From: Acidovorax sp. 69
GTDB taxonomy: Bacteria > Pseudomonadota > Gammaproteobacteria > Burkholderiales > Burkholderiaceae_C
Assembly: GCF_002797445.1 (NCBI RefSeq)
Contig: NZ_PGEP01000001.1
Span: forward strand, 3,534,501-3,598,500
Direction: 5' to 3'
DNA: 64,000 nucleotides
Positions 42,272 through 61,611 of the stretch are shown here, in pieces. Each line of letters begins with the position of its first letter. The stretch's first letter is position 1. The position numbers and the translations under genes are program-made. The notes below the pieces were generated by a model that was given only the letters and a program-made list of their open reading frames with translations, was not told the origin of the DNA and did no database searches.

Positions 42272-42898
42272 ATGAATGAGGCTTTGCGCATCGTGGTGGT
42301 TGCCCCGGATCTGGCGATTGCCGACCCGAACGACGAACACGCCGTACTCCAGGCGGAACGCTCGCGTGCGCTGCGCATTGGGCTGCTGGAAAACAACTTC
42401 AACCTCGTGGCCACGTTGCCCGCCGATGTGTTCCTGAGCGAGCGGATCGCCCAACTCCAGCCCGATCTGATCATCGTGGACGCCGAAAGCGAAGCGCGGG
42501 ACGCGCTGGAACATGTGGTCATGGCCACACGCGACGAGCGCCGCCCCATCGTGATGTTCACCAACGACGAAGACACGTCGCACGTCAAGGACGCCGTGGC
42601 GGCGGGGGTGTCCGCCTACATCGTCGCGGGGCTGGCCCCGCAGCGTATCCGCCCCATTCTGGACGTGGCCATGGCACGTTTTCAGCACGAGCAATCCCTG
42701 CGCGCCGAATTGGCCGATGCGAAGACCGAGCTGAAAGACCGCAAAACCATCGACCGCGCCAAGGGCCTGCTCATGCAGCGCCAGGGCCTGAGCGAGCAGG
42801 TGGCCTACGAGAAACTGCGCAAGACCGCCATGGACAAGGGCCTCAAACTGGCGGACGTGGCCCAGCGCATGCTCGACGTGATGGATCTGCTGGGCTGA
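42272..42898 (+). CDS. nasT: ANTAR-domain antitermination regulator, NasT-type
   Basis: 208 residues. The N-terminal pseudo-receiver domain contains LQPDLIIVDAESEARDAL and PIVMFTNDED. After a coiled-coil (ELADAKTELKDRKTIDRAKG) the ANTAR domain reads GLLMQRQGLSEQVAYEKLRKTAMDKG with its three-helix bundle to the end. NasT binds two-hairpin leader RNAs and blocks terminator formation; in known systems it is held by the nitrate/nitrite sensor NasS. No nasS is present beside it. Start codon is uncertain (ATG 42260 or 42272). Confidence 0.9.
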   Translation: MNEALRIVVVAPDLAIADPNDEHAVLQAERSRALRIGLLENNFNLVATLPADVFLSERIAQLQPDLIIVDAESEARDALEHVVMATRDERRPIVMFTNDEDTSHVKDAVAAGVSAYIVAGLAPQRIRPILDVAMARFQHEQSLRAELADAKTELKDRKTIDRAKGLLMQRQGLSEQVAYEKLRKTAMDKGLKLADVAQRMLDVMDLLG

Positions 42899-42952: not shown

Positions 42953-43062
42953 GCATCCCGCGCCCGAGCCACGCCCTACTCCACCGGTTTCACCCCAAAT
43001 GGTGCGCCGCACAAAGGCAGTGCGGCATTCGCTGCACGCACTACCTCCGCACATTTTCAAGC

Positions 43063-43159: not shown

Positions 43160-43175
43160 TGGCACGCTGCTTGCA
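43160..43175 (+). promoter_or_regulatory. Sigma-54 promoter of the nrt operon
   Basis: TGGCACGCTGCTTGCA matches the -24 GG / -12 GC consensus with exactly 10 bases between the GG (43161-43162) and the GC (43173-43174). Predicted transcription start is near 43186. It implies activation by a nitrogen-control enhancer-binding protein such as NtrC. Confidence 0.85.
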
Positions 43176-43185
43176 TCACCTCTTG

Positions 43186-43345
43186 CAAGACCAATGACGG
43201 TCTCACCTCTGACAGCACTGACCCAATGGCGGGCTGGTGCTGACACAAAGCCCCCCAATGGGCTTTGCCACGGACAAAGGCGTCCCTCTTCGAAGCCCGT
43301 TTGCGCATGCAAGCAGGCCAGGAGAGGACGCCTTTTTTGTTTTTA
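43186..43345 (+). promoter_or_regulatory. ANTAR-type antitermination leader of nrtA
   Basis: Hairpin 1 is AGACC-AATGAC-GGTCT (43188-43203). Hairpin 2 has 12-nt arms (43213-43224 and 43231-43242) with one mismatch and two wobble pairs around the hexaloop AATGGC (43225-43230). Both hexaloops have A at position 1 and G at position 4, the recognised ANTAR RNA signature. A third stem CAAAGCCC/GGGCTTTG (43246-43267) and a short GGAC-AAAGGC-GTCC hairpin (43272-43285) precede the terminator and overlap its 5' arm. The likely ligand is NasT, encoded 290 bp upstream. Confidence 0.85.
43278..43340 (+). terminator. Leader terminator in front of nrtA
   Basis: AGGCGTCC (43278-43285) pairs with GGACGCCT (43326-43333) followed by TTTTTTG. 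It ends 26 bp before the nrtA start codon, so it must be overcome for expression. Its 5' arm overlaps the GGAC/GTCC hairpin, making the two structures mutually exclusive. Confidence 0.85.
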
Positions 43346-43365: not shown

Positions 43366-44610
43366 ATGACCGATCTGTTGAAAACCAGCCTCAACCGCCG
43401 CACCGTGCTGCAGGCCGCCACGGTGGGTGCTGTGGGTGTGAGCCCGGCCCTGAGAGCGCTCGTCCATGCCCAGGGCTCGGACGCCCCCGAGAAGAAGGAA
43501 GTCAAGATCGGCTTCATCCCGCTGACGGACTGCGCCAGCGTGGTCATGGCCTCGGTGCTGGGCTTTGACAAGAAGTACGGCGTCACCATCATCCCCACCA
43601 AGGAAGCGAGCTGGGCCGGTGTGCGCGACAAGCTCGTCAACGGCGAACTCGACTTTGCCCACGTGCTGTATGGCCTGGTGTATGGCGTGCACCTGGGCAC
43701 CGCCGGCCCCAAGAAGGACATGGCCGTGCTGATGAGCCTCAACAACAACGGCCAGGCCATCACGCTGTCCAAGGCGCTGGCCGACAAGGGTGCGGTGGAC
43801 GGCCCCTCGCTGGCCAAGCTCATGGCCAAGGAAAAGCGCGAGTACACGTTCGCAGGCACCTTTCCCACGGGCACCCATGCCATGTGGATGCACTACTGGC
43901 TGGCGGCTGCGGGCATCAACCCGCTGTCGGGCGCCAAGCTCATCACCGTGCCTCCGCCACAAATGGTGGCCAACATGCGCGTGGGCAACATGGACGGTTT
44001 TTGTGTGGGCGAGCCCTGGAACCACCGCGCCATCATGGACGGCATCGGCATCACCGCCAACACCACCCAGGACATCTGGAAGGACCACCCCGAGAAGGTG
44101 CTGGGCACGTCGGCCGAGTTCGTCAAGAAGAACCCCAACACCACCCGCGCCGTGATGATGGCCGTGCTCGAAGCCAGCCAGTGGATCGACGCCAGTCTGT
44201 CCAACAAGATGAAGATGGCCGAGACCGTGGCGGGCAAAGCGTATGTGAACACCAGCGTGGACGCCATCAACCAGCGCATCCTGGGCCGCTACCAGAACGG
44301 CATGGGCAAGACCTGGGACGACCCCAACCACATGAAGTTCTTCAACGACGGCGCGGTGAACTTCCCCTACCTGTCGGACGGCATGTGGTTCCTCACGCAG
44401 CACAAGCGCTGGGGCCTGCTCAAGAGCCACCCCGACTACCTGTCGGTGGCCAAAGAGATCAACCAGATCGACCTCTACAAGTCGGTGGCCAGCGCCATGA
44501 AGATCAATGTGCCCAAGGACGCCATGCGCAGCAGCAAGCTCCTGGACGGCGTGGTGTGGGACGGAAAAGACCCCGCCAAGTACGCCGACAGTTTCAAGAT
44601 CAAGGCGTAA
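43366..44610 (+). CDS. nrtA: Nitrate ABC transporter substrate-binding protein
   Basis: 414 residues, CmpA/NrtA family. A twin-arginine signal (SLNRRTVLQAATVGAVGV) shows it is exported, which argues against it being the cytoplasmic sensor NasS. VKIGFIPLTDCASVVMASVLGFDKKYG, FAGTFPTGTHAMWMHYWLAAAGI and FCVGEPWNHRAI are family segments with the nitrate-pocket Trp/His residues. AAGGA precedes the ATG. First gene of nrtA-nrtB-ATPase. Confidence 0.93.
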   Translation: MTDLLKTSLNRRTVLQAATVGAVGVSPALRALVHAQGSDAPEKKEVKIGFIPLTDCASVVMASVLGFDKKYGVTIIPTKEASWAGVRDKLVNGELDFAHVLYGLVYGVHLGTAGPKKDMAVLMSLNNNGQAITLSKALADKGAVDGPSLAKLMAKEKREYTFAGTFPTGTHAMWMHYWLAAAGINPLSGAKLITVPPPQMVANMRVGNMDGFCVGEPWNHRAIMDGIGITANTTQDIWKDHPEKVLGTSAEFVKKNPNTTRAVMMAVLEASQWIDASLSNKMKMAETVAGKAYVNTSVDAINQRILGRYQNGMGKTWDDPNHMKFFNDGAVNFPYLSDGMWFLTQHKRWGLLKSHPDYLSVAKEINQIDLYKSVASAMKINVPKDAMRSSKLLDGVVWDGKDPAKYADSFKIKA

Positions 44611-54861: not shown

Positions 54862-55317
54862 GGATATCTCCTAGAAAAATGTCGCTTCCGCCACCCGACA
54901 ACAGCAGCAACCCTGGCGACTCGCGCCCCGGGCAGTGCTGAAATCATCTTATCGATAGAACGACGGCGAAAGCAAACGTTACTTGCGCAACCCCACGAAA
55001 GCGCCTCAGACCGAGGCAAATTCGCACGCGCAAAATGATAAATTGAGTTTTATTATATCCTCAATTTTATCATTTATTTCAATTTAATGCGCGTAAACCC
55101 TTATACCGAGTCACACCAGGCCACCCCGGTACCCCCGCTCATCCCTGCAGTGCTTGTAGCGGTGCACACGCTCCGCACAGTGCACCGTCCCCCCCATTGG
55201 GCGCGTAACCCTGCCACCCGCCGCCTGCCAGTGGTCAGCACCACCCAGGAACCCACACCAAAGAGCCTGGCGCAAACGTCGCCGCCGGATGCACGCCCCT
55301 TCTTGGTGCAGTCAAAC
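54862..55317. other. Intergenic region between the chemoreceptor and the narK promoter
   Basis: No gene recognised. It includes an AT-rich inverted repeat (55033-55075, listed separately), and half-sites GGTGCAC and GTGCACC near 55161 and 55180 that might bind NtrC but do not have canonical spacing. Confidence 0.5.
55033..55075. repeat. AT-rich inverted repeat
   Basis: AAATGATAAATTGAG on the left and CTCAATTTTATCATTT on the right, separated by 12 bases. The arms match apart from one extra A. The 55-bp block is almost pure A/T in a GC-rich genome. It lies 170 bp upstream of the chemoreceptor start and 240 bp before the narK sigma-54 promoter. Confidence 0.75.
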
Positions 55318-55333
55318 TGGCACACACATTGCA
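55318..55333 (+). promoter_or_regulatory. Sigma-54 promoter of the narK-type transporter gene
   Basis: TGGCACACACATTGCA, with 10 bases between GG (55319-55320) and GC (55331-55332), a consensus -24/-12 promoter. Predicted start near 55344. Confidence 0.85.
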
Positions 55334-55343
55334 TGCACTGGAA

Positions 55344-55464
55344 CAACGGCCCACGGGGCCATGTATGCCCAGGTGCAATGGCGCACCCGAGGAATGCGAG
55401 GACGAAGGCGTCCCCACATGCGGTTTCGAACCATCGAACCCGCATTGTGTGGGCGCCTTTTTTG
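55344..55464 (+). promoter_or_regulatory. ANTAR-type antitermination leader of the narK-type gene
   Basis: First stem GGCCC-ACG-GGGCC (55348-55360), whose loop is not a canonical hexaloop. Second stem GGTGC-AATGGC-GCACC (55372-55387) has the A1/G4 hexaloop, the same loop as in the nrtA leader. Then GGACG-AAGG-CGTCC (55400-55413) overlaps the 5' arm of the terminator. The order is the same as in the nirB leader, and the GGACG to TTTCGA block is nearly identical between the two. Confidence 0.82.
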
Positions 55465-55469
55465 TTTTC
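55405..55469 (+). terminator. Leader terminator in front of the narK-type gene
   Basis: AAGGCG (55405-55410) pairs with CGCCTT (55454-55459) and the inner CCCCACA, TGCGG and TTCGA segments pair with TGTGTGGG, CCGCA and TCGAA. TTTTTTG follows. It lies 50 bp before the start codon. Confidence 0.85.
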
Positions 55470-55518
55470 TGGCCGGCTGTGGTGAGAGAACGCCGCCCCT
55501 TTTTTAGTGCGATAACCC

Positions 55519-56733
55519 ATGCTTCACTTCCGAGAATTCCTCAAGTCCGGCCACGCGCCCACGCTGTGGTCGTCCTTTCTGTATTTCGGCTTCTCGTGCG
55601 CTGTCTGGGTCATCAACGGTGCGATGGCGCCGTTCATCCGGGACAGCTTCCAGCTCACGCCCACACAGATGGGGATGATGCTGTCCATCCCCATTTTTGC
55701 GGGCGCGCTGATGCGGTTTCCGCTGGGCATCCTGGCGCAGTACATCGGCCGCAAGCGCGCCACGCTGGTCGAAATGGCGGGCATCTTTGTCGCCATGGGT
55801 TATGGCTACCTGTTCGTGCACACCTACAACGACCTGCTGGCCATGGGCATCCTGCTCGGGGTGGCAGGGGCCAGCTTTGGTGTGGCACTGTCGCTGGGCT
55901 CGGGTTCGTTCCCTCCACGCTACAAGGGCCTGGCCATGGGCATCGTGGGTGCGGGCAACGTGGGCACGGCCGTGGCCGCCTTGCTGGCCCCTGCTCTGGC
56001 CCAGAAGTTCGGCTGGCAGGCCGTGTATGGTTTTGCCGCCGTGAGCGTAGCAATACCCGCCATCGTGATGGCGGTGTACGCCAAAGAGCCACCCGACCTG
56101 GCAGCCCATTCAAGTTTCCGTGATCACATTGCCTGCCTGTTCGAGAAAGACGGCTGGGCCTTCAGCCTGATCTACGCCGTGACCTTCGGTGGCTTCATTG
56201 GCCTCACCACCTTCCTGCCCAGCTACTTTTATGACCAGTTCAACGTGAGCAAAGTGCAGGCGGGGCAACTGACCATGATGGCGGCGTTTTTGGGCGCCGC
56301 CCTGCGTGTTTTCGGCGGCTGGCTGTCGGACCACTGGGGCGGCGTCAACACACTGACCGGCGTGTTGGCCATCACAGCCGTCAGCATGGTCTTGTGTGGA
56401 CTGGCCGAAAACTCGCTGCCCATCACCATGCTGCTGTTCCTGGTGTGTTTCGCAGCCCTGGGCGCAGGCAACGGCGCACTGTTCCAGCTGGTGCCCCTGC
56501 GCTGGCCGCTGACCACTGCGGTGGCGGGATCGATGATCGGCGAGATTGGCGCGCTCGGTGGTGGCCTCATTCCCAATGGCATGGGCATCTCTCGCCAATA
56601 CACCGGCACCTACCTGTGGGGCTTTGTGGGTATCGCCGTGTGCGCCGCCGCCATGCTGGTGCTGCTGCGTGTGATGCAAATCCGCTGGACAAGAACGTGG
56701 GCGGAAAAGGGCGGCCGTGCGCGCAGCGCATGA
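55519..56733 (+). CDS. Nitrate/nitrite MFS transporter, NarK/NasA family
   Basis: 404 residues with twelve predicted membrane helices. GVAGASFGVALSLGSGSFPPRYKGLAMGIVGAGNVGTAVAALLAP holds the nitrate signature motif of the NNP family, and GEIGALGGGLIPNGMG near 345 the second one. In the assimilation cluster it is probably the high-capacity nitrate importer beside the NrtABC transporter. The ribosome-binding site is weak. The stop codon falls inside the first unit of a tandem repeat. Confidence 0.93.
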   Translation: MLHFREFLKSGHAPTLWSSFLYFGFSCAVWVINGAMAPFIRDSFQLTPTQMGMMLSIPIFAGALMRFPLGILAQYIGRKRATLVEMAGIFVAMGYGYLFVHTYNDLLAMGILLGVAGASFGVALSLGSGSFPPRYKGLAMGIVGAGNVGTAVAALLAPALAQKFGWQAVYGFAAVSVAIPAIVMAVYAKEPPDLAAHSSFRDHIACLFEKDGWAFSLIYAVTFGGFIGLTTFLPSYFYDQFNVSKVQAGQLTMMAAFLGAALRVFGGWLSDHWGGVNTLTGVLAITAVSMVLCGLAENSLPITMLLFLVCFAALGAGNGALFQLVPLRWPLTTAVAGSMIGEIGALGGGLIPNGMGISRQYTGTYLWGFVGIAVCAAAMLVLLRVMQIRWTRTWAEKGGRARSA

Positions 56734-56828
56734 CGTGCGCCAGCACGTAAGCGCGCAGCGCATGACGTGCGCCAGCACGTAAGCGCGCAGCGCATGACGT
56801 GCGCCAGCACGTAAGCGCGCAGCGCATG
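56719..56828. repeat. 32-bp tandem repeat, 3.4 copies
   Basis: Units at 56719-56750, 56751-56782, 56783-56814 and a 14-bp partial copy (56815-56828). Each carries GCGCGCAGCGCATGACGTGC then GCCAGCACGTAA, with internal GCGC and ACGTGC/GCACGT symmetry. The copies are identical. The first overlaps the last codons and stop of the narK-type gene. Confidence 0.95.
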
Positions 56829-56952
56829 CCGAACTTTCGCCAAAAGGGAAGCCGGGCACGCAGTGCCTGAGCTGGCGATAGCCAGCCAATGCGCAGCATT
56901 GCCCACACTTTCGCCAAAAGGACGCCGTGCGCGCAGCGCGTGAACGGCGCTG
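56829..56952. repeat. Imperfect longer repeats downstream of the 32-bp array
   Basis: ACTTTCGCCAAAAGG occurs twice (about 56833 and 56908), each followed by a CGCGCAGCGCRTGA-like segment related to the 32-bp unit. The intervening sequence has small stems (GGCACGCAGTGCC, CTGGCGATAGCCAG). Confidence 0.7.
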
Positions 56953-56990
56953 CAGCCAAGGCGCCAAGCCCACACCCATGATGTTCAAGC

Positions 56991-57046
56991 AAAAACAGGC
57001 TGTAGCGCTTGTGCGAAAAGCGCTGACAGCTATTATTTTAGTAGCA
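56991..57046 (+). repeat. Dispersed palindromic intergenic repeat, copy 6
   Basis: AGCGCTT (57004-57010) and AAGCGCT (57018-57024) form a stem, followed by GACAGCTATTATTTTAGTAG. It is 20 bp from the 3' end of the kinase/phosphatase gene. Confidence 0.7.
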
Positions 57047-57066
57047 CATCACTTTTTCCCTTTCAC

Positions 57067-58827
57067 TCACCGGGGCAAAAACAGCAGCCAGTAAACCAGC
57101 AGCAGATTCACCAACACGCTCACAGCCAGCGCGATCTTCCACAGTGCCGTGGCGTCGCGCTGCATCAGCGGTTGCGGGCCAGGGGCAGACAAGGGGCGTG
57201 AAGCGCCACGCTCCAGCGCCAGCAGCAGTTCCTCGGCCGTCTCGAAGCGCTGCGTGCGGTTGCGGGCCACGGCCTTCAGGGCGATCTGGTCGAGCCAGAT
57301 CGGCACGCCCGGGTTGTGGCGGCTCGGGGCCACCGGGTCGCGGTGGTAGCGGCCCAGTTGGTAGGGCACCACCTCGCCATAGGGCAAGCGCCCGTGGCTC
57401 AGCAACTGGTAGAGCGTGACACCCAGTGCAAACAAATCGCTGCGCGCGTCGGGCAACTGCCCCTCGGTGTCACCGCTTTTTTCGTAGCCCGGCCATTGCT
57501 CGGGGTTCATGTAGCTGGGTGTGCCTGCGTGCAACTGGCGTGTGGCCTCGGGCTCGCGTCCCGAGAGGGCCACACCCAGGTCCAGCACACGCAGCACCCC
57601 GTCGTCGCCCAGGTGCAGGTTGTCGGGCTTGATGTCCCGGTGCACCACCCCCTGGCGGTGCAGCCAGCCCAGCACGCGAACCGCCTGCACCGTGACCGAC
57701 AGGGCCTGGGCCACGCCCAGGTACTCGCGGCGGCGCAGGCGCTGGCCCAGCGTGTCGCCCGCATGCCAGTCATACAGCAGGTAGAACGCGCTGGCGCCCT
57801 GGCCGGTGCTGCCCAGCCCCGCCGGCCAGTCGTTGAGCCATGCCAGGTGCGTGACGGCCTGGCCCGACTGCATGCGCCGCGCCACCCAGGCCTCATGCGC
57901 CAGGGTGGCGCGCTCCTCGGTGTCATGGGCGCGCGAGGGCAGCAGGGTCTTGAGGGCGTACAACCGCTGCGTGACGGGATCACGCACCTGGTAGATGCGG
58001 TGAATGCCACTGTCGGCCACCAGGGCCGTGACCGTGAGGTCGTCCACCGTGTCGCCCACTCTCAAGAGCGGCAGCACGGGCAGGTCCTGCGCTCGGCGGG
58101 ATTCATCCTGCAGCGTGGCCTCCAGCGCGCCCTGCACACGCACCACCAACGCCGTCACGTTGTCGCTGCTGCCCCGGCGCAGCGCGGCCTGCACCAGCTC
58201 ATCGCTGAGCGCCTGGGCCGCCACGTCTGCCTGGCGCAGCAGCTGCCGCAGTTCGCGCTCGGGCAGGCTGCCATGCACACCGTCGGACAGCAGCACGAAC
58301 AGGTCACCACTGTGCAGCTCACCCTGGCTGTAGTCCACCACCACATGGTCGTCGAGTCCCATGGCACGGGTGAGCTGGTGCGCAAAATCCCGCTGCGCCA
58401 TCACATGGTCGGCTGTCAGCAGTTGCAGGCGCCCCCCCCGCAGCAGGTAGGCACGCGTGTCGCCCACATGGGCCAGCGTGTACGACTGGCCGCGCAATAC
58501 CAAGGCGGTGAGCGTGGTAAGACCCACGGCCGGCTGACGACGCCGGTTCATGGAGGCCAGCCAGCCGTTGTGTGCGCTCAGGATGCGATCCAGCGCCACC
58601 GTGGTGTCCCAGGTCTCAGGGGTTGCAAAGTAATCGCCCATCAAGGTGTTCACGGTGGTCTGCGCGGCCTCGCGCCCCTTGCCGCCCGTGCTCACGCCAT
58701 CGGCAATCGCGGCGATGGCGCCGCGCTCACGATCACGCCCTTGCCCCACCGCGAGCGCAGCGAAGTCTTCATTCACGTCCTTGCGCCCTGCCTGCGAGGC
58801 CTGACCGACATCCAGTTCAAAGCTCAT
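57067..58827 (-). CDS. Bifunctional PP2C phosphatase / Ser-Thr protein kinase
   Basis: 586 residues. The N-terminal PP2C-like domain (1-240) shows GRKDVNEDF, IAAIADGVSTGGKG, VGDTRAYLLRGG and LLSDGVHG. The kinase domain (about 265-540) shows VVHRDIKPDNLHLG (catalytic loop), LDLGVAL in place of DFG, and GTPSYMNPEQ in place of APE. One C-terminal membrane helix ends the protein. A homologue (PA1782) lies between the nitrate transporter and nirB genes in Pseudomonas, so the association is conserved. Here it is encoded on the opposite strand to both neighbours. Confidence 0.93.
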   Translation of the reverse strand: MSFELDVGQASQAGRKDVNEDFAALAVGQGRDRERGAIAAIADGVSTGGKGREAAQTTVNTLMGDYFATPETWDTTVALDRILSAHNGWLASMNRRRQPAVGLTTLTALVLRGQSYTLAHVGDTRAYLLRGGRLQLLTADHVMAQRDFAHQLTRAMGLDDHVVVDYSQGELHSGDLFVLLSDGVHGSLPERELRQLLRQADVAAQALSDELVQAALRRGSSDNVTALVVRVQGALEATLQDESRRAQDLPVLPLLRVGDTVDDLTVTALVADSGIHRIYQVRDPVTQRLYALKTLLPSRAHDTEERATLAHEAWVARRMQSGQAVTHLAWLNDWPAGLGSTGQGASAFYLLYDWHAGDTLGQRLRRREYLGVAQALSVTVQAVRVLGWLHRQGVVHRDIKPDNLHLGDDGVLRVLDLGVALSGREPEATRQLHAGTPSYMNPEQWPGYEKSGDTEGQLPDARSDLFALGVTLYQLLSHGRLPYGEVVPYQLGRYHRDPVAPSRHNPGVPIWLDQIALKAVARNRTQRFETAEELLLALERGASRPLSAPGPQPLMQRDATALWKIALAVSVLVNLLLVYWLLFLPR

Positions 58828-58843
58828 GCACCAGCTCCATGCA
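58827..58843. promoter_or_regulatory. Candidate NtrC-type site at the kinase start, upstream of nirB
   Basis: TGCAC-CAGCTCC-ATGCA is one base away from the TGCAC-N7-GTGCA pattern of NtrC sites and lies about 135 bp upstream of the nirB sigma-54 promoter, a typical enhancer distance. It overlaps the start codon of the divergent kinase gene. A weaker neighbour ends GGTGGTGCA at 58866. Confidence 0.5.
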
Positions 58844-58944
58844 GGTTCTGTGCCCAAGGTGGTGCATGCCAGCGCATGTCTGTCGGCCCCGCGTGGATGC
58901 CATCACCCACCAGCGTGCCCTCGGTAGCCCACCCCTTCGGACCA

Positions 58945-58972
58945 GCGCACTGGGCAACCCAGATCAGTGCGC
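58945..58972. repeat. Inverted repeat adjacent to the nirB promoter
   Basis: GCGCACTG (58945-58952) and CAGTGCGC (58965-58972), perfect 8-bp arms with a 12-bp spacer, ending 6 bp before the sigma-54 element. Could be a regulator site. Confidence 0.5.
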
Positions 58973-58978
58973 CTACTC

Positions 58979-58994
58979 TGGCACGGGCATTGCT
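58979..58994 (+). promoter_or_regulatory. Sigma-54 promoter of the nirB operon
   Basis: TGGCACGGGCATTGCT, 10 bases between GG (58980-58981) and GC (58992-58993). Predicted start near 59005. Confidence 0.85.
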
Positions 58995-59004
58995 TAACAA
59001 GGGC

Positions 59005-59128
59005 AACGACCCGGCAGGGTCACGCAATTCACCCGTGCAACGGCGCACTGAGGAGTTGTAAGGACGAAGGCGTCCCCACATGCGGTTTCGAGACCTCGGA
59101 GCAGCATCGTGTGGACGCCTTTTTTGTT
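59005..59128 (+). promoter_or_regulatory. ANTAR-type antitermination leader of nirB
   Basis: First stem GACCC-GGCA-GGGTC (59008-59021). Second stem GTGC-AACGGC-GCAC (59035-59048) with the A1/G4 hexaloop. Then GGACG-AAGG-CGTCC (59062-59075), exclusive with the terminator. Element order and spacing match the narK leader. Confidence 0.82.
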
Positions 59129-59130
59129 TT
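59067..59130 (+). terminator. Leader terminator in front of nirB
   Basis: AAGGCGTCC (59067-59075) pairs with GGACGCCTT (59113-59121), with CCACA/TGTG and ATGC/GCAT inner pairing, followed by a U-tract. It ends 37 bp before the nirB start. Confidence 0.87.
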
Positions 59131-59166: not shown

Positions 59167-61611
59167 ATGAAAAAGCTCAAACTGGTGATGGTGGGGAACG
59201 GCATGGCCGGTGTGCGCACGCTGGAAGAGTTGCTCAAGATTGCTCCCGATCTGTATGACATCACGGTGTTCGGCGCCGAGCCCCACCCCAACTACAACCG
59301 CATTCTGCTGTCGCCCGTGCTGGCGGGCGAGCAGACCATCGACGAGATCATTCTCAACGACTGGTCCTGGTACGCAGACAACCACATCACCTTGCACACC
59401 GGCTTCACGGTGACCGAAGTCGACCGCGTGCGCCGCGTGGTCACGGCCACCGGCGCAGCGGGTGACGTGATCACTGCCGAGTACGACCGCCTCATCATCG
59501 CCACGGGCTCCAACCCGTTCATCCTGCCCATTCCCGGCAAGGACCTCAAGGGCGTGCTGGCCTACCGCGACATTGCCGACACGCAGGCCATGATCGACGC
59601 GGCCGCCACCTACCAACACGCCGTGGTCATCGGCGGCGGCCTGCTGGGTCTGGAGGCCGCCAACGGCCTCATGAAACGCGGCATGCAGGTCACCGTAGTG
59701 CATGTGGGCGACTGGCTGATGGAGCGCCAACTCGACGATGTAGCCGGCAAGATGCTGGAGAAGTCGCTGCAGGAGCGTGGCATGAAGTTCCTGATGGGTG
59801 CGCAGACCCAGGAGCTGGTCGGCAACGCCGAAGGCCGTGTGGCCAGCGTCAAATTCAAGGATGGAACCGAGGTCCCCGCCGACCTGGTGGTGATGGCCGT
59901 GGGCATCCGCCCCAACACCGCCCTGGCCGAAAAAATGCGCCTGCACGTGAACCGCGGCATTGTGGTGAGCGACACGCTGCAAACCACCACCGACGCCCGC
60001 ATCTACGCCGTGGGCGAATGCGCCGCACACCGGGGCATAGCCTATGGTCTGGTGGCTCCGCTGTTTGAGCAGGGCAAGGTGCTGGCCAACCACCTGGCCG
60101 AGTTCGGCATCGGCCGCTACCAGGGCTCGCTCACGTCCACCAAGCTCAAGGTCACGGGCATCGACCTGTTCTCGGCCGGCGACTTCCAGGGCGGCGAGGG
60201 CACCGAAGAAATCGTGATGAGCGACCCCTTCGGCGGTGTGTACAAAAAGCTGGTGCTCAAGGACGACAAGCTTGTGGGCGCCTGCCTGTATGGCGACACG
60301 GTGGACGGCAGCTGGTACTTCAAGCTGCTGCGCGACGGCCGCAGCGTGACCGACCTGCGCGACAAGCTCATGTTTGGCGAATCGCACCTGGGCGATACCG
60401 GCCACCAGGGCCAGAGCAAGGCCGCCGCCATGGCCGACACCGACGAGGTCTGCGGCTGCAACGGCGTGACCAAGGGCGCGATCTGCAAAGCCATCAAGGA
60501 CAAGGGTTTGTTCACGCTCGACGAAGTGCGCAAACACACCAAGGCCAGCGCGAGCTGCGGATCATGCACCGGGCTGGTGGAGCAGATCATCATGTTCACG
60601 GCCGGTGGTGACTATTCCGCCACGCCCAAAACCAAGGCCATGTGTGGCTGCACCGACCACGGCCACCAGGCCGTGCGCGACGCGATCCGCAGCAGCAAGC
60701 TGCTGAGCATTGCCGACGTGTTCAAGTTCATGGAATGGAAGACGCCCAACGGCTGCGCCACCTGCCGCCCGGCCGTCAACTACTACCTCATCAGCACCTG
60801 GCCCAAGGACGCCAAGGACGACCCACAAAGCCGCGCCATCAACGAGCGCAGCCACGCCAACATCCAGAAAGACGGCACCTACAGCGTGATTCCCCGCATG
60901 TGGGGCGGCGAGACCACGGCCGACGAGCTGCGCCGCATTGCCGACGCTGTGGACAAATACAAGATTCCCACCGTCAAGGTCACGGGCGGCCAGCGCATCG
61001 ATTTGCTGGGCGTGAAAAAGGAAGACCTGGTCAACGTGTGGAAAGACATTGGCATGCCCAGCGGCCACGCCTACGCCAAGGCGCTGCGCACCGTCAAAAC
61101 CTGCGTGGGCAGCGAGTGGTGCCGCATGGGCACACAAGACAGCACGCAGATGGGCAAGGACCTGGAGCGCGCCATGTGGCGCATGTACGCCCCGCACAAA
61201 GTCAAGTTTGCCGTGAGCGGCTGCCCGCGCAACTGTGCCGAAGCAGGCATCAAGGACGTGGGCATCATCGGTGTGGACAGCGGCTGGGAGATGTACGTGG
61301 CGGGCAACGGCGGCATCAAGACCGAGGTGGCCCACTTCTTCACCAAGCTGAAAACCGCCGAGGAAGTGCTGGAGTACACCGGCGCATTCTGCGAGCTGTA
61401 CCGCCAGGAGGGCTGGTACCTGGAGCGCACCGTGCACTACGTTGACCGCGTGGGTCTGGACTATGTGAAAAAGCGCATTCTCGAAGACGCCGAGGGCCGC
61501 AAGGCGCTGTGGGAGCAGCTGCAGTTTGCACTGGATGGCGAGCCCGACCCCTGGTTCGAGTTTGACAAGGCCGCCGTGGACACGCGCCAGTTTGTGCCCT
61601 TGGGCGCCTGA
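59167..61611 (+). CDS. nirB: Assimilatory nitrite reductase [NAD(P)H], large subunit
   Basis: 814 residues. FAD domain with VGNGMAG (10-16), NAD domain with VIGGGLLGLEAAN near 155, BFD-like [2Fe-2S] domain with VCGCNGVTKGAIC and CGSCTG near 420-465, a second cysteine cluster (CGCTDHGH, GCATCRP), and the sirohaem/[4Fe-4S] half-domain with CVGSEWC and GCPRNC. Six-electron reduction of nitrite to ammonium. GGAG precedes the ATG. Start of nirB-pilJ-like-nirD-nasA. Confidence 0.97.
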   Translation: MKKLKLVMVGNGMAGVRTLEELLKIAPDLYDITVFGAEPHPNYNRILLSPVLAGEQTIDEIILNDWSWYADNHITLHTGFTVTEVDRVRRVVTATGAAGDVITAEYDRLIIATGSNPFILPIPGKDLKGVLAYRDIADTQAMIDAAATYQHAVVIGGGLLGLEAANGLMKRGMQVTVVHVGDWLMERQLDDVAGKMLEKSLQERGMKFLMGAQTQELVGNAEGRVASVKFKDGTEVPADLVVMAVGIRPNTALAEKMRLHVNRGIVVSDTLQTTTDARIYAVGECAAHRGIAYGLVAPLFEQGKVLANHLAEFGIGRYQGSLTSTKLKVTGIDLFSAGDFQGGEGTEEIVMSDPFGGVYKKLVLKDDKLVGACLYGDTVDGSWYFKLLRDGRSVTDLRDKLMFGESHLGDTGHQGQSKAAAMADTDEVCGCNGVTKGAICKAIKDKGLFTLDEVRKHTKASASCGSCTGLVEQIIMFTAGGDYSATPKTKAMCGCTDHGHQAVRDAIRSSKLLSIADVFKFMEWKTPNGCATCRPAVNYYLISTWPKDAKDDPQSRAINERSHANIQKDGTYSVIPRMWGGETTADELRRIADAVDKYKIPTVKVTGGQRIDLLGVKKEDLVNVWKDIGMPSGHAYAKALRTVKTCVGSEWCRMGTQDSTQMGKDLERAMWRMYAPHKVKFAVSGCPRNCAEAGIKDVGIIGVDSGWEMYVAGNGGIKTEVAHFFTKLKTAEEVLEYTGAFCELYRQEGWYLERTVHYVDRVGLDYVKKRILEDAEGRKALWEQLQFALDGEPDPWFEFDKAAVDTRQFVPLGA

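Follow-up and report, generated by a model that had tools for sequence, protein, structure and literature searches.

A 64,000-nucleotide stretch of Acidovorax sp. 69 (contig NZ_PGEP01000001.1, positions 3,534,501 to 3,598,500 of the forward strand), here called the window, carries nitrate-assimilation genes in the order nasT then nrtA, with narK 12 kb and nirB 16 kb downstream. Upstream of each of nrtA, narK and nirB lies a leader built on the same cassette, which runs from a sigma-54-type promoter through a hairpin with a hexaloop (P1) and another with a GGAC/GTCC stem (P2) to a terminator (Table 1). An original prediction, made from the letters of the window, had proposed this common order, and every listed element was found in place. 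P2 is GGACNAAGGCGTCC in the window leaders, and its loop and 3' arm form the terminator 5' arm in all three. The P1 loops follow the pattern AAYGGC, with A at position 1 and G at position 4 (AATGGC in nrtA and narK, AACGGC in nirB), and the P2 loops all have G at position 4 (AAAGGC in nrtA, GAAGGC in narK and nirB). The distance from the P1 loop to P2 is 23 nt in narK and nirB and 47 nt in nrtA, falling in the latter to 25 nt when an intervening hairpin is folded out. Judged on these sequence features, the nrtA leader is a member of the ANTAR dual-hexaloop leaders, and the narK and nirB leaders are classed as putative variants with G at position 1 of the P2 loop.

Conservation and Folding of the Leaders

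A covariance model (R1) comprising P1 and the terminator was built on 39 leaders (alignment A1), which include the narK, nirB and a fourth leader of the same genome but not the window nrtA leader. In the window it scores narK at 83.4, nirB at 80.6 and nrtA at 54.0 bits (E 1e-16 to 4e-10), and the next three matches (23.3, 17.6, and 13.9 bits) come from the terminators of these leaders, read on the opposite strand. Alignment of related leaders had been suggested as a check for compensatory changes, and these were found: two-sided changes occur at 4/5 pairs of P1, 7/13 pairs of the terminator and 2/4 pairs of P2. The P1 loop is near invariant although the P1 stem covaries. The leaders of the alignment were hand-picked from the output of a scan that did not require P1 pairing, and 89.7% of P1 cells are paired; for P1 and the terminator together the figure is 93.0%, compared with 34–60% after a slide of 1–3 columns, percentages that lean upward because the scan did require P2 and the terminator, whose pairing is partly by construction and to that extent counts against our reading. 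A joint change of P2 and the distal terminator arm, from G-C-G to A-U-A at columns 82, 93, and 142, is seen in two rows (the nrtA leaders of L079 and L112); in a third (narK of L041) the terminator is altered and P2 is preserved through G-U.

The minimum free energy fold is the terminator form in 3/3 window leaders, and forcing P2 costs 6.5 to 11.3 kcal/mol. When the RNA is truncated at the end of P2, P1 and P2 both fold. The common bases, these folds and the joint changes in two rows indicate that P2 and the intrinsic terminator are mutually exclusive.

ANTAR Proteins, Further Leaders and Their Distribution

The Acidovorax sp. 69 genome, a single contig of 4,966,379 bases, encodes two ANTAR proteins, NasT, for which the closest solved chains by sequence are Rv1626, EutV, and NasR, and a NasR-like protein of the NIT-ANTAR type. 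It also holds four leaders, the genome-wide search that had been proposed for further copies having added one to those of the window. A short-pattern scan gave 232 places at ≤2 mismatches against 352 in a reversed control; the exact matches are the three window leaders, and of the remaining places only the one beside the NasR-like gene was examined, which proved to be the fourth leader (L001, G000:C1:2099552-2099687). This leader precedes a formate/nitrite transporter gene and lies directly downstream of the NIT-ANTAR gene, so that the order at this locus (L001:406-2859 on G000:C1, about 1.4 Mb from the window) is NIT-ANTAR gene, ANTAR leader, formate/nitrite transporter. Just upstream of the corresponding NIT-ANTAR locus, five relatives (L246, L247, L249, L257, and L259) encode a protein 36–38% identical to part of NirB.

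Among 150 genomes of the family, each at least 90% complete, a leader (counted at E ≤ 0.01) was found in 97 and an ANTAR match in 121. Leaders occur in 96/121 genomes with an ANTAR protein versus 1/29 without (Fisher p = 1e-14). A leader match is present somewhere in the stretch at 56 of 80 nirB loci, in some before nrtA instead of nirB; the other 24, several Hydrogenophaga among them, have no match in stretches some of which start just before nirB. At seven nirB loci (L065, L070, L073, L084, L089, L092, and L095) a distant NasT-like gene (34–39% identity) lies upstream of nirB on the opposite strand, and there is no R1 match in the stretch.

Promoters and NtrC-Like Sites

Of 122 leaders, 104 are preceded by a sigma-54 motif, and on the reverse complement none is. 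In the window the promoters have a GG-N10-GC core and, by sequence only, an upstream NtrC-like dyad with one or two mismatches. Across 161 regions, which include those of related strains, dyads with at most two mismatches peak 101–160 nt upstream of the sigma-54 elements (104 versus about 6 in shuffles), bins nearer the promoter also being raised. Over the whole window such dyads are rarer than chance (38 versus 81), and between -180 and -111 no dyad was found for any of the three formate/nitrite transporter regions. Deletion of ntrC in Acidovorax citrulli is reported to leave the bacterium unable to use nitrate (PMC10052978).

The original prediction envisaged a double gate, with nitrogen limitation acting through sigma-54 and nitrate or nitrite through NasT. 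The enrichment of NtrC-like dyads 101–160 nt ahead of the sigma-54 elements and the position of nasT, upstream of nrtA, make a double gate likely; that nitrate or nitrite is sensed through NasT is the unproven part, as no NasS was found and the second ANTAR protein is of the NasR type.

Table 1. Features of the nasT-nrtA, narK, and nirB regions (coordinates are those of the window).
Feature	Coordinates	Strand	Evidence or remark
nasT-like gene, 208 aa, receiver-like and ANTAR domains	42272..42898	+	Pfam ANTAR 71.9 bits; receiver 21.5 bits, below cut-off 30.2
NtrC-like dyad, 2 mismatches, 152 nt upstream of nrtA -24 element	43008..43024	+	
Sigma-54-type promoter of nrtA, TGGCACGCTGCTTGCA	43160..43175	+	Sequence
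P0 hairpin, nrtA leader, GACC-AATGAC-GGTC (A at loop position 1, G at 4)	43189..43202	+	Recurs in NasT-linked class
P1 hairpin, nrtA leader, loop AATGGC, stem with internal loop	43214..43241	+	
Extra hairpin between P1 and P2, nrtA leader, loop CCCAAT, non-ANTAR type	43246..43267	+	
P2, putative antiterminator, nrtA, GGAC-AAAGGC-GTCC	43272..43285	+	
Intrinsic terminator, nrtA leader, 5' arm overlapping P2	43277..43339	+	
nrtA-like nitrate-binding protein, twin-arginine motif NRRTVLQ	43366..44610	+	Pfam NMT1_2 336.1 bits
NtrC-like dyad, 2 mismatches, 155 nt upstream of narK -24 element	55163..55179	+	
Sigma-54-type promoter of narK, TGGCAC-N5-TTGCA, TGGCACACACATTGCA	55318..55333	+	Sequence
P0-position stem, narK, GGCCC ACG GGGCC, loop not ANTAR-type	55348..55360	+	
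P1 hairpin, narK, GGTGC-AATGGC-GCACC	55372..55387	+	
P2, putative antiterminator, narK, GGAC-GAAGGC-GTCC, GGACGAAGGCGTCC, G at loop position 1	55400..55413	+	
Terminator, narK leader	55405..55464	+	
narK-type nitrate/nitrite MFS transporter	55519..56733	+	TIGR00886 222.9 bits (below cut-off 311.7); MFS_1 132.9 bits
NtrC-like dyad TGCACCAGCTCCATGCA, 1 mismatch, 152 nt upstream of nirB -24 element	58827..58843	+	
Sigma-54-type promoter of nirB, TGGCACGGGCATTGCT	58979..58994	+	Sequence
P0-position stem, nirB, GACCC GGCA GGGTC, loop not ANTAR-type	59008..59021	+	
P1 hairpin, nirB, GTGC-AACGGC-GCAC	59035..59048	+	
P2, putative antiterminator, nirB, GGAC-GAAGGC-GTCC, G at loop position 1	59062..59075	+	
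Terminator, nirB leader	59067..59126	+	
nirB, nitrite reductase large subunit	59167..61611	+	TIGR02374 914.5 bits

Three other features of the narK-nirB region may be mentioned. Directly after narK (56720-56830) come about three GC-rich direct repeats of roughly 36 nt, nearly identical to one another and identified by eye; a mechanically called open reading frame of 139 aa antisense to the narK leader (55101-55520, reverse strand) is probably due to chance; and the product of a divergent gene between narK and nirB (57067-58857, reverse strand) combines, by Pfam, a PP2C-type phosphatase with a protein kinase domain.

A Third Hairpin in NasT-Linked nrtA Leaders

The nrtA leaders were classed by the adjacent upstream regulator: 40 adjoin a receiver-ANTAR protein close to the window NasT (RRA, here NasT-linked), 16 a more distant receiver-ANTAR protein (RRB, type-B-linked) and 32 a NIT-ANTAR protein (NIT-linked), and for four none was recognised. 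Analysis of the promoter-to-P2 interval was limited to leaders with a recognisable sigma-54 motif (39, 13, and 26, respectively). Folding of this interval gives at least two hairpins upstream of P2 in 38/39 NasT-linked leaders, at about -50 and -22, compared with 3/13 type-B-linked and 14/26 NIT-linked leaders, the second hairpin of the latter lying mostly between P1 and P2. Two hexaloops with A at position 1 and G at position 4 are found in 16/39 NasT-linked leaders (0.09 expected), 0/26 NIT-linked and 0/13 type-B-linked leaders. The additional hairpin, P0, precedes P1, and the median spacing is 28 nt both from P0 to P1 and from P1 to P2 (36 NasT-linked leaders). These leader sequences are related, so that the counts are not independent; most of the NasT-linked genomes come from different genera.

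P0 is probably an extra recruitment rung in the NasT-linked class. The alternative, that it is a mere 5' stabilising hairpin in which the loop letters are incidental, we regard as possible but doubtful. When a hairpin was sought by a 4-bp stem and a 6-nt loop 44–66 nt before P2 as the sole criteria (with the window, L153 and L220 excluded), it was present in 32/36 NasT-linked leaders, against 0.26 per shuffled leader, and 25 of these 32 loops had both A at position 1 and G at position 4, against 7% in shuffled leaders; the stem varies in paired fashion. The same test seldom found a hairpin in NIT-linked (9/26) or type-B-linked (4/13) leaders, where A stood at position 1 in 2/9 and 2/4 and the two loop letters showed no preference. 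Stabilisation draws its support from the leaders of the other operons: the Acidovorax nirB leaders, like the narK leaders in the window, in L041 and in L051, keep a stem at the P0 position without an ANTAR-type loop, and a hexaloop hairpin occupies that position in 35 of 44 nirB and narK leaders, with A at position 1 in 19 and G at position 4 in 23. Even so, four Acidovorax narK leaders (L042, L049, L052, and L062) retain both letters (AACGCT).

The window nrtA leader, like that of the same-genus genome G076, has P0 and P1 and an additional hairpin between P1 and P2. In 37 NasT-linked nrtA leaders the ANTAR-consensus loop nearest to P2 lies at 21–29 nt in 20, 45–59 nt in 14, 13 nt in two and 33 nt in one; the 23 nt of the window narK and nirB leaders fall in the first of these ranges. 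A hairpin folds out of the intervening stretch in 14/14 long linkers (z -1.3 to -4.7), and most of these hairpins occupy the P1 position, placing the consensus loop at the P0 position. For EutV, a 20-nt extension is reported to abolish antitermination (PMC8934654). No three-hairpin ANTAR leader is named in the titles and abstract openings listed by searches of open-licence papers, which did not extend to the NasT studies in Azotobacter and Pseudomonas; what appears new here is the phased P0 hairpin of NasT-linked nrtA leaders and, as set out below, a NasT for which no NasS was found and a narK leader of nirB-like kind.

NasT, the NasR-Like Protein and the Apparent Absence of NasS

With two ANTAR regulators in the genome, the NasR-like NIT-ANTAR protein could be the driver of narK, nirB and nrtA and NasT an accessory, which we consider rather unlikely. 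In its favour, AAAGGC leaders stand at nirB, nirB-like or narK genes in five relatives with a NIT-type regulator beside nrtA (G018, G020, G061, G133, and G135), three of which (G018, G020, and G133) have a single ANTAR match; yet eight genomes whose single ANTAR match is of the NasT type carry the same kind of leader at nrtA. Moreover, the P2 loop at nrtA tracks the adjoining regulator, being AACGGC in 30/32 NIT-linked and 1/56 receiver-linked leaders, and the window nrtA leader falls with the receiver-linked ones. The idea that position 3 of the P2 loop encodes recognition by a given regulator class was considered and rejected on the same three single-ANTAR genomes: given their AAAGGC leaders, joint inheritance of regulator, leader and nrtA in one cassette accounts for the strong association at nrtA equally well.

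NasS, the known partner of NasT, is described as having no signal peptide (PMC5424462). It was not found in the Acidovorax sp. 69 genome, where 11 places match PF13379; two exceed 100 bits, both with a twin-arginine (Tat) motif, and the other nine, at ≤48 bits, were left unread. Sixteen relatives were chosen as having a single ANTAR match, of the NasT type. In eight of these there is exactly one PF13379 match (E ≤ 1e-30), this being the NrtA encoded after the leader, which has a Tat motif in 8/8; the other eight have two to four matches, several being a second NrtA type with an RRRFL motif, and the set contains tandem copies in G002 and G075 and 7/26 sequences without a motif reading. Confinement of NasS loss to this family was rejected on the layout of loci from a class-wide search of 274 genomes, 58 of which have a NasT match (Acidovorax sp. 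69 included): loci were obtained for 29 of the 57 others, and in 25 of these nasT has an NrtA-like stretch nearby, at ≤100 bp in 15, with a leader match (E ≤ 0.006) between the two in up to 10. The gene called nasS in work on A. citrulli (PMC10052978) may be nrtA. A second NrtA-type protein, whose long N-terminal extension contains CSCGRDH, is encoded elsewhere in the Acidovorax sp. 69 genome (L034, G000:C1:4484676-4488392), next to a permease and a response-regulator-like protein.

If NasT does act in the absence of NasS, the question arises of how many Acidovorax relatives sense nitrate. One speculative answer, to which we give little weight, is a three-rung ladder in which a NasS-free NasT dimer would be loaded at P0 once P0 emerges from the polymerase and would then be passed to P1 and on to P2 ahead of the terminator, while the NrtA precursor, folded in the cytoplasm before Tat export, would read nitrate and could hold NasT as NasS does.

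Origin of the narK Leader

The window narK and nirB leaders, first noted as almost identical over about 30 nt, are fully identical over 30 nt (GGACG to TTTCGA). The window narK leader has an identity of 0.74 to the best nirB leader and 0.72 to its own nirB leader, versus 0.63 to the narK leader of L051, 0.58 to that of L041 and 0.45–0.51 to nine others; of these 11 narK leaders, 10 from Acidovorax, nine are of another type and two of a third. The window NirB itself is 94–97% identical to NirB at Acidovorax loci. On these identities the nirB-like leader at narK is real, and the proposed duplication of a regulatory module holds insofar as the narK leader is nearer to nirB leaders than to those of its relatives' narK genes; a particular kinship with its own nirB leader does not follow.

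Recent gene conversion of narK by the own nirB leader, which the identical stretch and the prevalence of other leader types at related narK genes might suggest, is not supported and is quite unlikely. Between P2 and the U-tract, nirB leaders of other strains match the narK leader as well (0.89) as does its own nirB leader (0.88), and in the part before P2 its own nirB leader is at 0.57, behind the best other at 0.65. In addition, the upstream region of the window narK aligns with those of L051 (75%) and L041 (70%) over about 300 nt that take in 80 nt of narK, and a tree, though based on 146 columns, does not place the two window leaders together. We read this evidence as an old replacement.

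Proposed Mechanism

The anatomy, conservation, covariation and genomic association observed here make it very probable that the three window leaders and the fourth are ANTAR antitermination leaders, at which NtrC and sigma-54 would start transcription and an ANTAR protein would hold P2 against the terminator. Under nitrogen limitation NtrC and sigma-54 RNA polymerase would begin transcription, as the motifs suggest. By default the RNA would fold into the terminator and transcription would stop. An active ANTAR protein (NasT beside nrtA, possibly the NasR-like protein of the genome too) would bind the hexaloops and hold P2, and since the loop and 3' arm of P2 are also the terminator 5' arm, the terminator could not be completed and the operon would be read. 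In the NasT-linked class, P0, placed before P1 at the P1-P2 pitch, would add its probable extra rung. The parts of this scheme that we infer are the binding of the protein, nitrate as the signal, the direction in which the operons respond and the role of P0.

Several further points weigh against it. As defined, the sigma-54 motif is missing from 18/122 leaders, and a dyad at -180 to -111 is present in only 41/97 nrtA, 33/48 nirB and 4/9 narK regions. The canonical A at position 1 of the P2 loop is replaced by G in narK and nirB, as in 23/122 leaders overall; 25/121 genomes with an ANTAR protein have no leader that passed the strict filters; and a search of the leaders against Rfam matched no family. 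Loss of nasT in Bradyrhizobium is reported to raise the expression of a narK operon that has a predicted NasT hairpin (PMC6759348). On the alternative of attenuation in the absence of an ANTAR protein, sigma-54 promoters and intrinsic terminators would suffice and the hairpins would be stability elements or remnants. This alternative gains from binding being only predicted and from the deviant narK and nirB P2 loops, but the near-invariant P1 loop on its covarying stem and the near-confinement of leaders to genomes with an ANTAR protein make it highly improbable.

Comparison with Known Systems

The original prediction knew of no description of this antiterminator, but its core is the published ANTAR dual-hexaloop leader (PMC3369931; PMC8934654). 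Such leaders are described for EutV/eut, NasR/nasF and AmiR/amiE (PMC3369931; PMC3369936; EutV-RNA structure, PMC8934654), and dual stem-loops also in an actinobacterial ANTAR survey (PMC8164766). Multi-operon ANTAR regulons, with leader matches before nitrate/nitrite transporters and nitrite reductase, have likewise been published (PMC3369931).

The Bradyrhizobium NasT regulon resembles the present one in combining a single NasT with predicted hairpins in several leaders, including that of narK; it differs in the presence of NasS, and a third hairpin is not mentioned in the relevant passages of that study (PMC6759348). In the NasS-NasT system of Paracoccus (PMC3795266, which cites Azotobacter and Pseudomonas) a NasT-type ANTAR protein is similarly found beside nitrate-assimilation genes with antitermination leaders, whereas here no NasS was found and the strong PF13379 proteins of the genome bear a twin-arginine motif. 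In Klebsiella, nitrate assimilation is controlled by Ntr plus NasR (PMC5424462; nasF leader, PMC3369936), a serial arrangement of a nitrogen-limitation gate and a nitrate gate that is likely in the window too. Acidovorax sp. 69 has a homologue of the NIT-ANTAR protein, provided with a leader, but this homologue adjoins a formate/nitrite-family transporter and coexists with NasT.

With the ANTAR dual-hexaloop leaders at large, those described here share two hexaloop hairpins, the second overlapping the terminator 5' arm, P1 loops with A at position 1 and G at position 4, P2 loops with G at position 4, a P1-P2 spacing that appears constrained in narK and nirB, and several operons per regulator. 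What sets them apart is the phased P0 of the NasT-linked class, the guanine that opens the narK and nirB P2 loops and the extra hairpin that separates P1 from P2 in the window nrtA leader. Structural work on EutV has asked why there are two hairpins if the dimer holds one, and has proposed a hand-off from a recruitment hairpin (PMC8934654). Leaders with a naturally added and equally spaced hairpin, beside classes mostly without it, provide a ready-made test of that model.

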